From Xylanimonas allomyrinae (GTDB taxonomy: Bacteria; Actinomycetota; Actinomycetes; Actinomycetales; Cellulomonadaceae): DNA of 64,000 nucleotides. This document shows positions 39,721-42,978 of the stretch, piece after piece. A program made the position numbers and the translations under genes. Below the pieces are notes generated by a model that had not been told where the DNA came from, did not search any database, and saw nothing but the letters and a program-made list of their open reading frames with translations. Numbering within the stretch: the stretch's first letter is position 1; each line of letters starts with the position of its first letter. The DNA is taken from the NCBI RefSeq assembly GCF_004135345.1, contig NZ_CP035495.1, positions 1,488,001-1,552,000 of the forward strand. The letters run 5' to 3'.

Positions 39721-40512
39721 TCACTCGCCCGCCGGACCCGGCAGGTCCACCGCCCCGCCGTAGCGCCGGTCGCGGCTCGCGTACTCCTCGCACGCCTTCC
39801 ACAGGTGGCGCCGGTCGACGTCGGGCCACAGCTCGGGGATGAACATCAGCTCGGCGTAGGCGGCCTGCCAGATCATGAAGTTCGAGATCCGCTGCTCGCC
39901 CGACGAGCGCAGGAACAGGTCGACGTCGGGCAGGTCGGGCTCGTCCAGGTACTTCTGGATCGTCTTCTCGCTGACCTTGTCCGGGTTGATCTTCCCGGCC
40001 ACGGCGTCGCGCGCGATCGCGGCGGCGGCGTCCGCCAGCTCGGCGCGACCACCGTAGTTGACGCACATCGTCAGCGTGCACCTGTCGTTGTCGCGCGTCA
40101 TCTGCTCGGCGACCTGAAGCTCCTTGATGACCGAGCCCCACAGGCGCGGGGTGCGCCCCGCCCAGCGGATGCGCACACCCCAGGAACCCATCTCGTCACG
40201 CCGCGACCGGATGACGTCACGGTTGAAGCCGAGCAGGAACTTGACCTCCTCGGGCGACCGCTTCCAGTTCTCGGTGCTGAACGCGTACGCGCTGATGTGC
40301 TTGACCCCGAGCTGCACGGCCCCGGCGACCACGTCGAGCAGCGACTTCTCACCCTGCTTGTGACCTTCGATGCGGCTCAGCCCGCGCTGGTTGGCCCAGC
40401 GGCCGTTGCCGTCCATGACGACGGCGACGTGCCGGGGCAGCAGGTCGGCCGGGATGGGTGGCGGCGTCGCTCCCGACGGGTGCGGGTACGGCTCGGCGTA
40501 GGTGCGGGGCAT
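39721..40512 (-). CDS. uppS: Isoprenyl transferase (cis-prenyltransferase, UppS family)
   Basis: A 263-residue enzyme extending farnesyl or geranyl diphosphate with isopentenyl diphosphate in cis to make the lipid carrier for cell-wall synthesis. Conserved regions include HVAVVMDGNGRWANQRG with the catalytic Asp, GHKQGEKSLLDVV, AYAFSTENWKRS, NYGGRAELADAA and DLFLRSSGEQRISNFMIWQAAYAELMF. The ATG overlaps the recO stop (ATGA), an order conserved in actinobacteria. Confidence 0.97.
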   Translation of the reverse strand: MPRTYAEPYPHPSGATPPPIPADLLPRHVAVVMDGNGRWANQRGLSRIEGHKQGEKSLLDVVAGAVQLGVKHISAYAFSTENWKRSPEEVKFLLGFNRDVIRSRRDEMGSWGVRIRWAGRTPRLWGSVIKELQVAEQMTRDNDRCTLTMCVNYGGRAELADAAAAIARDAVAGKINPDKVSEKTIQKYLDEPDLPDVDLFLRSSGEQRISNFMIWQAAYAELMFIPELWPDVDRRHLWKACEEYASRDRRYGGAVDLPGPAGE

Positions 40513-41264
40513 CAGACCTCTCTCACGGTCGTCGGGGTGCGGTCCACGTGCCGCAACGAGCGCAGCGTGCGTTCCAGGTAGTACTGCGTGTAGGCGGCCA
40601 CGAGGCCGGAGGCCTCCTTGCGGTGTCGCTCCCCCGCCGCGTCCGCGACCGCCCACTCACCCGTCAGCAGCGCGGCCAGCAGGGCGAACGTCTCGGGTGC
40701 GGGCGCGGTCGAGCCCGGTGGCCTGCAGCGCGCGCACACCGCGCCTCCCGTGGCGACGGAGAACGCGTGGTGCGGCCCGGGCTCGCCGCACCGCGCGCAG
40801 TCGGTGAAGGACGGCGCCCAGCCGGCGACGGCGAAGGCCCGCAGCAGGTAGGAGTCGAGCACGAGCGAGGGCGCGTGGTCGCGTTGCGAGAGCGCCCGCA
40901 GCGCCCCAGCCAGGAGCCAGTACTGCTGCACGGCGGGCTCGCGCTCGGCCTCGACGAGGCGGTCGGCGGCCTCCAGCATCGCCGCGCCCGCGGTGTACAG
41001 GGTGTAGTCGGCGCAGATCGCGCGGGCGTACGGGCCGACGGTCTCGGCCTGCGTCACGGTGTCGAGCGAACGGCCCACATGAAGCTGCGCGTCCACGACC
41101 ATGAACGGCTCGAGCCGGGCCCCGAACCGCGACGACGTGCGGCGCACCCCCTTGCCGACGGCACGTACCTTGCCGTGCTCGCGCGTCAGGAGCGTGACGA
41201 TGCGGTCGGCCTCACCCAGCTTCTGGGTGCGCAGCACGATGGCGTCGTCTCGGTACAGGGGCAC
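40512..41264 (-). CDS. recO: DNA repair protein RecO
   Basis: A 250-residue recombination mediator that helps load RecA on gapped DNA. It shows an N-terminal OB fold ([40 protein letters not shown]), a helical C-terminal domain and a zinc-finger-like pair of Cys motifs (CARCGEPG and CARCRPPG). GTG 41264 has GGGGGAG nine bases upstream. It is the first gene of the recO-uppS pair, divergent from the clpP pair. Confidence 0.95.
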
Positions 41265-41325
41265 GGGAGCATTCTCCCCCGCCGCACCGACAGCGCCGGT
41301 CCGCGGCCACGTCGTGCGCCCCGGG

Positions 41326-41357
41326 CGGACGGACGGCGGACGGACGGCGGACCGACG
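41326..41357 (+). repeat. Short tandem repeat upstream of the clpP pair
   Basis: The 11-base unit CGGACGGACGG occurs twice in tandem (41326-41336 and 41337-41347), followed by a diverged copy CGGACCGACG. It lies between recO and the first clpP gene, about 70 bases before the clpP start. It could be an expansion by slippage or part of the divergent promoter; no role is evident. Confidence 0.7.
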
Positions 41358-41427
41358 CTGCTCTGGGCGGATCCGCCGAGAGCAGCGCGCCCTGCCACCG
41401 CCGTCTGCCGCCGTGCACGGTGGAGGC

Positions 41428-42048
41428 ATGAGCGACACACCCGCATCACGCCTCTTCGACGCTCGTGCCCGTCGCGAGCTCTACGACCGCCGCGTCCTCG
41501 TGCTCGACGGCGTGCTCGACGACGACAACGGCACCCTGCTGGCGACGCAGCTGATCACCCTCGCGGCCGAGGACGACTCCGACATCGCCCTGTGGATCCA
41601 CTCCCCTGGCGGGTCGGTCCCCGCGATGCTCGCGATCAGGGACCTCATGCGCACCGTCCCCTCCGACGTCGCGACGCTCGCCCTCGGCATCGCGGCCAGC
41701 GCCGGGCAGTTCCTCCTGTCGGCCGGCACCCGCGGCAAGCGCCGGGCGCTGCCGCACGCGCGCGTGCTGCTGCACCAGGGCTCGGCCGGCATCGGCGGCC
41801 CCGCCGTCGACATCGCGCTGCAGGCCGACGACCTGCGCCACACGCGCGACACCGTGCTTCGCCTCATCGCCGACGACGTCGGCCAGCCCGTCGAACGCGT
41901 CTTCGACGACTCGCTGCACGACCACTGGTTCACGGCCGGCGAGGCACGCGAGTACGGGTTCGTCGACGCCGTCGTCACGTCGTACGCGGACATCGCGCCG
42001 CTGCGGCGAGGCCGCGCCGGGTTCGGCCACACCGAGGAGGAGCAGTGA
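41428..42048 (+). CDS. clpP: ATP-dependent Clp protease proteolytic subunit, catalytically complete accessory ClpP
   Basis: A 206-residue ClpP. The substrate-binding strand reads [12 protein letters not shown]. The triad is present: Ser91 in GIAASAGQ, His116 in VLLHQG and probably Asp161 in [13 protein letters not shown] lies upstream of the ATG. It overlaps the second clpP gene (GTGA), and no clpX or tig is nearby, so this is an accessory pair like Streptomyces clpP3-clpP4 and not the housekeeping clpP1-clpP2. It would form a mixed ring with the next gene's product. Confidence 0.93.
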
Positions 42049-42629
42049 CCTACACGATCCCCCACGTCGTCGCCGCGCACCCGCGCGGCGAGCGCATCAT
42101 GGACGTCTACTCCCAGCTCCTGACCGAGCGGATCGTCTACCTGGGCTCGGCGCTCGACGCGGGCGTCGCCAACGCGCTGATCGCCCAGCTCCTGTTCCTG
42201 GAGTCCGCCGACCCCGACTCCGACATCCAGCTCTACGTCAACTGCGAGGGCGGCGACCCGAGCGCAGCCCTCGCCGTCTACGACACGCTGCGCTACGTGC
42301 GCCCCGACGTCGCCACGACGTGCGTGGGGCAGGCCGTCGCCGTGGGCGCCGTCCTGCTCGCGGCCGGCGCCCACGGCAAGCGTGCCGCGCTCCCGCACGC
42401 CCGCGTGGTGCTGCACCAGCCCGCCGCGCAGGGGCGAGGGCCGATCCCCGACCTCATCCTGCAGGCCGACGAGGTGCTGCGGATCCGCTCGGACCTTGAG
42501 GACGTGCTCGCGCGGCACACCGGGCAGGCGGTCGCCACGCTGCGTGCCGACACCGACCACGACCGCGTGCTCACGGCCGCGCAGGCGCGGGACTACGGCA
42601 TCCTCGACCACGTCATCGAGGTGCGCTGA
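42045..42629 (+). CDS. ClpP-family subunit lacking the catalytic serine
   Basis: A 194-residue ClpP homologue aligned along its whole length. The position of the nucleophile is Ala99: the segment reads CVGQAVAVGA where active ClpP has GQAASMGA; codon 99 is GCC, one base from Ser TCC. His124 (VVLHQP) and Asp169 (RADTDHDR) remain. The binding-strand motif is CEGGDPSAALAVYDTL. The frame is clean and coupled to the active subunit, so this looks like a maintained structural or regulatory subunit, comparable in principle to the ClpR subunits of cyanobacteria. It should be inactive by itself. Confidence 0.9.
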   Translation: MTYTIPHVVAAHPRGERIMDVYSQLLTERIVYLGSALDAGVANALIAQLLFLESADPDSDIQLYVNCEGGDPSAALAVYDTLRYVRPDVATTCVGQAVAVGAVLLAAGAHGKRAALPHARVVLHQPAAQGRGPIPDLILQADEVLRIRSDLEDVLARHTGQAVATLRADTDHDRVLTAAQARDYGILDHVIEVR

Positions 42630-42659: not shown

Positions 42660-42685
42660 GGCGCTGAGCTCAGGCCGCCAGCGCC
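42660..42685. terminator. Possible terminator between clpP pair and PopR-like gene
   Basis: GGCGCTG (42660-42666) pairs with CAGCGCC (42679-42685) across a 12-base loop. It spans the stop codon of the minus-strand regulator gene and follows the clpP stop by 30 bases. The stem is short, so termination is only possible. Confidence 0.4.
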
Positions 42686-42978
42686 CACGCCGTCGGGCCG
42701 GCGTGCGCGCGCGCGGACGCCGGCGTGCGCGCGGCCCGCAGGTCCGCGGCGACGCCGAGGGTCAGGTCCACGAGCGTGACGTCCAGCGCACCTGCGACGG
42801 CGGCGATCATCTCGCTCGACGGTTCCTTGACGCCCCGCTCGATCTCCGACAGGTACTGCGGCGAGACGCCGGCCCGGCGCGCGACGTCACCCAGGGTTCT
42901 GCCGCGGCGATGCCGCAGTCGCCGGAGCCGCTCGCCCAACGCGTCCCGCCACAGCGGTTCGCCCGCTTCGCTCGCCAT
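42670..42978 (-). CDS. ClgR/PopR-like XRE-family activator, probable ClpP substrate
   Basis: A 102-residue DNA-binding protein with a Cro/C1-type helix-turn-helix (LGERLRRLRHRRGRTLGDVA, then AGVSPQYLSEIERGVKEPSS, about 15-56), the hallmark sequence of the ClgR/PopR family. The C-terminus is a short Ala-rich tail ending AWALAA. In Streptomyces lividans PopR activates clpP3-clpP4 and is itself degraded by ClpP through two C-terminal alanines. The tail and the location next to an accessory clpP pair fit that model. It is convergent with the clpP pair. The ATG at 42978 has no strong ribosome site. Confidence 0.85.
   Translation of the reverse strand: MASEAGEPLWRDALGERLRRLRHRRGRTLGDVARRAGVSPQYLSEIERGVKEPSSEMIAAVAGALDVTLVDLTLGVAADLRAARTPASARAHAGPTAWALAA

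Follow-up and report, generated by a model that had tools for sequence, protein, structure and literature searches.

Xylanimonas allomyrinae carries, 1.1 Mb from the housekeeping clpP1P2 genes of the same genome, an accessory clpP pair in which the ClpP1-like subunit keeps its catalytic triad and the ClpP2-like subunit has lost the catalytic serine while remaining under purifying selection. The pair lies in the window, the whole 64,000-nucleotide stretch of DNA that was analysed, together with a PopR-like regulator gene and a PopR-type operator sequence. It probably encodes an accessory, PopR-controlled protease core of the ClpP3P4 type, in which the P1-like ring would do the cutting and an inert P2-like ring would dock the ATPase and gate entry. 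The PopR/ClpP3P4 system itself is already known. A wider proposal, which we advance tentatively and regard as somewhat doubtful, is that the PopR-controlled back-up Clp core has repeatedly evolved, across the Actinomycetota including Streptomyces, into an asymmetric machine of an inert docking ring and a catalytic ring, by way of different triad residues, and that inertness may be favoured.

Gene organisation of the accessory pair

Both genes were found on the + strand where the initial annotation had placed them. The first (41428-42048) encodes the ClpP1-like catalytic subunit of 206 amino acids with the triad Ser91-His116-Asp165, and the second (42045-42629), which has a GTG start, encodes the ClpP2-like subunit of 194 amino acids, predicted to be inert, with Ala99-His124-Asp173 at these positions. 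The two are coupled by a GTGA stop/start overlap (42045-42048, + strand). Codon 99 of the second gene reads GCC (42339-42341, + strand) and gives alanine in place of the catalytic serine, so the reported Ala99 and retained His124 are borne out, as are Ser91 and His116 of the first protein. The aspartates had been misnumbered as Asp161 and Asp169; alignment to solved ClpPs fixes them at Asp165 and Asp173, and both are present. We take their E. coli ClpP counterpart to be the catalytic Asp171 of the mature protein.

Both proteins match PF00574 (167 bits for the first, 212 bits for the second) and the NCBI ClpP models, yet they score below the curated cut-offs of the latter. Judged by sequence, the second subunit is a non-peptidase homologue within the S14 family, since it has the ClpP fold and the PF00574 match but lacks the Ser-His-Asp triad at Ala99. 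Its best AlphaFold2 model has a mean pLDDT of 89 (the other four models 49-64), and the top Foldseek matches of the predicted structure are M. tuberculosis ClpP1P2 chains (TM 0.93-0.94).

The genome contains four ClpPs, the housekeeping pair at C1:413481 and 414217 and the accessory pair at 1529473 and 1530084. A ClpX-sized ATPase frame adjoins the housekeeping clpP1P2. The Clp D2-small domain has three matches in the genome, one adjoining clpP1P2 and none adjoining the accessory pair, from which it appears that the accessory core has no ATPase of its own and probably shares the Clp ATPases of the genome. Upstream of the pair, the longest RecO frame (40512-41438, - strand) crosses the operator and the start of the first clpP. 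The RecO domain of this frame begins only at residue 62 (near 41255), so the true RecO start probably lies downstream of the operator, with RecO and the first clpP divergent.

Loss of the catalytic serine in a maintained protein

A sample of 150 genomes from the family contained 23 loci with 77-100% identity to the second protein. Position 99 is Ala in every one of the 23, with GCC or GCG as the codon, and Ser is intact in each of their 23 partners; no close family relative had Ser at position 99. A sequence error or lone mutation, which the initial annotation had named as a way for its reading to fail, is thereby ruled out. The next family group (about 53-65% identical) mostly carries Ser, with Ala or Gly in four members (L060, L058, L056 and L073). 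Further P2-like members with Gly, Ala or Thr came from a sample of 396 genomes of the order. One P2-like protein of another family, at 77% identity, carries Ser (L118).

Pseudogene decay is ruled out by the dN/dS values and by the lack of internal stops in any match listed. For 13 hand-chosen pairs of related loci, dN/dS of the dead subunit was 0.02-0.29, and it was below that of the active partner in 10 of the 13. The view that the pair is maintained with open frames despite the lost nucleophile is therefore upheld. The companion claim, that the Ala99 change itself looks selected, is not borne out: by entropy the column ranks 143 of 191, among the more variable, and besides A it admits G, T or D, and three members of the dead clade have Ser. 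At the sequence level the P2-like protein is constrained as a whole while site 99 is not, a pattern which fits a dispensable site within a constrained protein.

The retention of His124 and Asp173 might suggest that the P2-like subunit has remained proteolytically active by means of a different nucleophile. We consider this highly improbable. An alignment of 27 P2-like proteins offered no candidate for a conserved alternative nucleophile; Cys93, near the site, also occurs in Ser-bearing members and is absent from some dead ones (Val in L008 and L123), and 63 of 88 dead members have Glu (57 rows) or Asp where the SPGG motif has Pro.

Distribution of dead and canonical P2-like subunits

Among the best 80 of at least 580 relatives, the Ser position holds Ala in 61, Gly in 15, Ser in three and Asp in one, so that Ser is absent in 77 of 80. 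Genera represented among these 80 include Oerskovia, Promicromonospora, Streptosporangium, Nonomuraea, Actinomadura, Nocardioides, Tsukamurella, Glycomyces, Microbacterium and Embleya. The accessory set comprises 217 loci (genomes reached twice included), which de-replication at 93% identity reduced to 133 clusters. The P1-like triad is SHD in 216/216 readable loci and intact in 132/132 clusters; the L210 partner ends at a contig end and was left out of the P1 counts. Of the 133 clusters, 43 have a canonical P2-like triad and 89 a non-canonical one, and in one the Asp is unread. The non-canonical clusters divide into 81 without Ser, seven with Ser but without His (SGD) and one without Asp only (SHA). 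As controls, housekeeping ClpP2 is SHD in all of 30 hand-chosen genomes bearing an accessory pair, and the ordinary ClpP2-like genes of the phylum sample are SHD in 23/23.

Where no P1-like gene reached a score of 430, the locus was excluded from the accessory set (L242-L262, L264, L265 and the repeats L275 and L277), and all of these loci are ordinary ClpP2-like by sequence. A P1-like partner adjoins the P2-like gene in 199/199 readable loci from the family, the order and the best 80 of at least 580 relatives. The paired genes overlap by 4 nt in 91 and by 1 nt in 31 of 132 clusters, with start codons chosen by script.

This arrangement bears on the possibility of cross-assembly, in which the P2-like (or P1-like) subunit would pair with housekeeping ClpP1 or ClpP2 and regulate the main core. 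The constant P1-like partner, the mostly 4-nt or 1-nt overlaps and the one common upstream operator speak against it, and if the inert subunit were the only one that mattered, there would be no need for the P1-like one. There is a precedent in Streptomyces ClpP-ADEP, a ClpP1 homologue reported to disrupt ClpP1 and pair with ClpP2 (PMC12607617), and Tyr64 and Tyr84 of the inert subunit are found in the housekeeping ClpP2 of X. allomyrinae too. On balance we regard cross-assembly as unlikely and a dedicated core of the two accessory subunits as the better reading.

Several further variants were seen. In single relatives the catalytic His has gone as well, replaced by Asp in Glycomyces buryatensis and by Asn in Microbacterium barkeri (L207 and L231), and an Acidipropionibacterium MAG (L178) has Asp at the Ser position. 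A second type of accessory clpP pair, with a canonical P2-like triad, makes up most of L062-L111 and is also PopR-linked; its PopR-like gene is not adjacent but about 1 kb off in several genomes. The PopR-type clpP pair of Streptomyces fungicidicus is carried on a 0.93-Mb plasmid, and Ala-type pairs occur on replicons filed as plasmids in Embleya (L237) and Tsukamurella (L238). Plasmid carriage could help explain the spread of the pair between orders.

Repeated change on the tree

A quick method, with positions 99, 124 and 169 masked and five own-genus rows as outgroup, was used to build a tree from 138 P2-like rows; only 22 of its 135 inner branches are starred. The active/dead label needs at least 11 changes on this tree against a mean of about 41 when shuffled, at least six of them forced by starred branches, and these counts do not separate gain from loss. 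The label is thus clustered beyond chance. With corrected triads, Ser versus non-Ser needs at least 10 changes. The dead (88) and canonical (45) groups used for the tree, patch and operator counts were scored at Asp169, under which L276 (SHA) and L108 (Asp lost at a contig end) count as canonical, and a count of 13 changes on corrected triads takes L108 as non-canonical.

Three Ser-bearing clusters lie inside the dead clade (L118, L193 and L213), the first of which shares its motifs with L201. They are the only canonical clusters with Glu for the Pro of the SPGG motif (NCEGG). Because they share this dead-type motif, their Ser may be a reversion in a degraded site.

Regulator and operator

The initial annotation missed two features. 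Directly downstream of the clpP pair and convergent with it is a gene (42670-42978, - strand) for a ClgR/PopR-like XRE regulator of 102 amino acids whose C-terminus (...TAWALAA) is degron-like. It scores 69 and 68 bits to NF041677 (ClgR), under the cut-off of 170, and a better ClgR match, at 122 bits, lies elsewhere in the genome at C1:531909 (L278), which makes the regulator beside the pair a ClgR paralogue, as PopR is. The C1:531909 protein ends in ELTPVG and does not have the C-terminal Ala-Ala reported for Streptomyces ClgR.

A relative of the regulator was present in the fetched flank at 73 of the best 80 of at least 580 relatives; 71 of the 73 have a C-terminal Ala-Ala, and convergent orientation within 250 nt was seen for 60. 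Four of the seven loci without a regulator have less than 400 nt of contig downstream. At the family and order loci a relative was found in 67/71, in some cases about 1 kb away.

The second feature is a palindromic, putative PopR-type operator (41358-41385, no strand; core GGCGGATCCGCC at 41366-41377) whose left end is 70 nt before the start codon of the first clpP. It fits YTGCYNNNRGCRGATCYGCYNNNRGC, matching on both strands where 0.06 matches would be expected by chance, and this is the only place in the 3.85-Mb genome where the pattern occurs without mismatch; the same genome-wide search gave no exact match at the housekeeping clpP1P2. Within three mismatches, the pattern occurs in 108/120 upstream regions and in 1/1200 shuffles that preserved base composition only, the former figure being partly circular since YTGCYNNNRGCRGATCYGCYNNNRGC was derived from the same upstream regions. 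In 79 of the 108 the left end falls 69-71 nt before the start codon. The upstream region of S. fungicidicus, where circularity does not enter, holds the exact PopR box as quoted in PMC9775585. The operator in the window has the half-site architecture of this published box, with letters that are not identical. A first PopR-box search with TCTGCCNNNGGC returned background levels (28 found, 37.9 expected). A ClgR box (GTTCGC-N5-GCG) with one mismatch at 41314-41330 was rejected as a candidate, the window holding 114 such matches where 91 are expected (1/100 shuffles as high).

A coupled clpP pair apart from clpP1P2, a ClgR paralogue ending in Ala-Ala and an upstream PopR-type box are the features of PopR-type membership, and together the regulator and operator place the pair, itself confirmed, in the known ClpP3P4 back-up system. 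In Streptomyces PopR is reported to be degraded by ClpP1P2 (PMC9765437, PMC12607617), so that ClpP3P4 appears once ClpP1P2 fails, and clpP3P4 of S. lividans can sustain life without clpP1P2 (PMC9765437). The operator is found alike in canonical (37/43) and dead (71/77) pairs.

Docking residues and a proposed division of labour

The Clp ATPase-binding patch of relatives is represented in E. coli by Tyr74, Tyr76 and Phe96 (PMC4416901, PMC9765437). In the second protein these align with Gln62, Tyr64 and Tyr84; the first protein has Ala54, Trp56 and Thr76 there. Position 64 of the P2-like proteins is Tyr in 85/88 dead and 45/45 canonical rows, with Thr or Phe in the other three dead rows. All 133 rows have Tyr, Phe or His at position 84, the His being confined to dead rows (19/88), so the patch is slightly eroded at both positions in dead members. 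Pro6 of the N-loop is kept in 132/133 P2-like proteins. At the third patch position the P1-like subunit is aromatic in 0/132, and the housekeeping ClpP1 of X. allomyrinae has Trp, Tyr and Phe at the patch positions, Phe being at the third.

The missing aromatic of the P1-like subunit is weak evidence, since Streptomyces ClpP1 also has patch aromatics and yet the ATPases there dock on ClpP2 only (PMC9765437). Canonical accessory pairs show the same patch split between P1-like and P2-like subunits as dead pairs, so the split does not explain the catalytic loss. Indeed the regulator, the operator and the patch split are all present in canonical pairs, and none of them explains or requires inertness.

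Published mutants of relatives work with an inactive ClpP2 ring. In Streptomyces, ClpP1P2 with ClpP2 S131A is described as keeping full protease activity and ClpP1 S113A as abolishing it (PMC9765437), and in M. tuberculosis an inactive ClpP2 ring left processing complete and unimpaired, with both ATPases requiring the ClpP2 face (PMC4416901). By analogy, the natural accessory pair looks like a fixed counterpart of those mutants.

An arrangement like that of ClpR, with active and inert subunits mixed within each ring and active sites thinned in both, fits this background less well. Actinobacterial housekeeping cores consist of a ClpP1 ring and a ClpP2 ring with the ATPases on the ClpP2 side (PMC4416901), the predicted P2-like model is closest to M. 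tuberculosis ClpP1P2 chains, and the division of docking features between the subunits suits separate faces. The precedent for mixing is cyanobacterial ClpP3/R, with three and four subunits per ring, in which restoring the site in ClpR did not make the core faster (PMC4673316). We judge mixed rings improbable here, slightly more so than cross-assembly, and prefer one inert and one catalytic ring.

As to why the site was lost, neutral loss has not far short of an even chance: the P2-like site would be dispensable and inertness without advantage. This concerns only the cause of the loss and is compatible with a docking role for the inert ring. It agrees with the variability of site 99 (A, G, T, D or S), with the drift of His and Asp in a few P2-like members, with the regulator and operator common to canonical and dead pairs, and with a Ser-to-Ala change that is silent in a relative, Streptomyces ClpP2 (PMC9765437). 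Yet the housekeeping ClpP2, which can do without its site in vitro, keeps it in 30/30 genomes, so a loss confined to the accessory pair needs more than dispensability as its explanation.

Proposed mechanism and significance

In the mechanism we propose, the PopR-like activator would normally be destroyed through its C-terminal LAA by housekeeping ClpXP1P2. When the housekeeping protease fails or is inhibited, the activator would accumulate, bind the operator at 41358-41385 and switch on both subunits together through translational coupling. The ClpP1-like subunit would form the sole catalytic ring, and the inert ClpP2-like ring would dock a Clp ATPase (ClpX or ClpC), open the pore and hold the catalytic ring in its active state. 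If the P2-like active site adds nothing that is needed, evolution could repeatedly discard its nucleophile (or, in the Streptomyces type, its His) and retain everything else in the protein.

ClpP is an antibiotic target. If the wider proposal holds, inertness may be favoured, for example by protecting the back-up core from inhibitors aimed at the ClpP active site or by avoiding cleavage close to the entry pore. The findings also bear on why actinobacteria use two unlike ClpP rings. The pairs make up a natural series in which catalysis was lost several times and docking residues were kept, so natural enzymes offer a test of the division of labour proposed from mutants. A repeatedly dead P2-like subunit in a back-up Clp core, by way of different triad residues, was not found stated in the open-licence full-text literature consulted, which did not include the original PopR papers of Viala and colleagues.

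Comparison with known Clp systems

The closest known system is PopR-clpP3clpP4 of Streptomyces, which likewise has two adjacent clpP genes, a convergent helix-turn-helix regulator ending in AA and an upstream PopR box. Plasmid p1 of S. fungicidicus shows this order, the clpP pair being followed by a convergent helix-turn-helix gene. The proteins of the window are only about 50-56% identical to those of the Streptomyces-type pairs, and the lesions differ: Streptomyces-type P2-like subunits keep Ser and have Gly for His (7/7), whereas that of the window has Ala for Ser. The His loss is based on S. fungicidicus and six genomes grouping with it. Gly in place of the catalytic His leads to the prediction that the Streptomyces back-up protease likewise has an inert P2-like subunit, through another residue.

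Housekeeping ClpP1P2 of M. tuberculosis and Streptomyces resembles the accessory pair in combining a P1-like with a P2-like subunit, in its docking features on the P2 side and as the source of the top Foldseek matches, but housekeeping ClpP2 differs from the P2-like subunit of the window in keeping its triad; the housekeeping ClpP1 of X. allomyrinae keeps its triad also.

ClpR of cyanobacteria and plastids, which the initial annotation had named as the nearest idea, is a conserved ClpP homologue without a working triad that occurs with an active ClpP, as the P2-like subunit does by its sequence. The comparison is apt as an analogy of function and fails for the arrangement, because cyanobacterial ClpR occupies one ring together with ClpP3 and has ClpC as its partner (PMC4673316), while the actinobacterial cores studied have a ClpP1 ring and a ClpP2 ring. 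Accessory pairs differ from ClpR also in that different triad residues are affected in different lineages. In Listeria too, one of the two ClpPs (ClpP1, with Asn for Asp) departs from the standard triad; the triad of Listeria ClpP1 is reported to be aligned in the mixed complex (PMC9765437), whereas the P2-like subunit of the window is without the nucleophile altogether.
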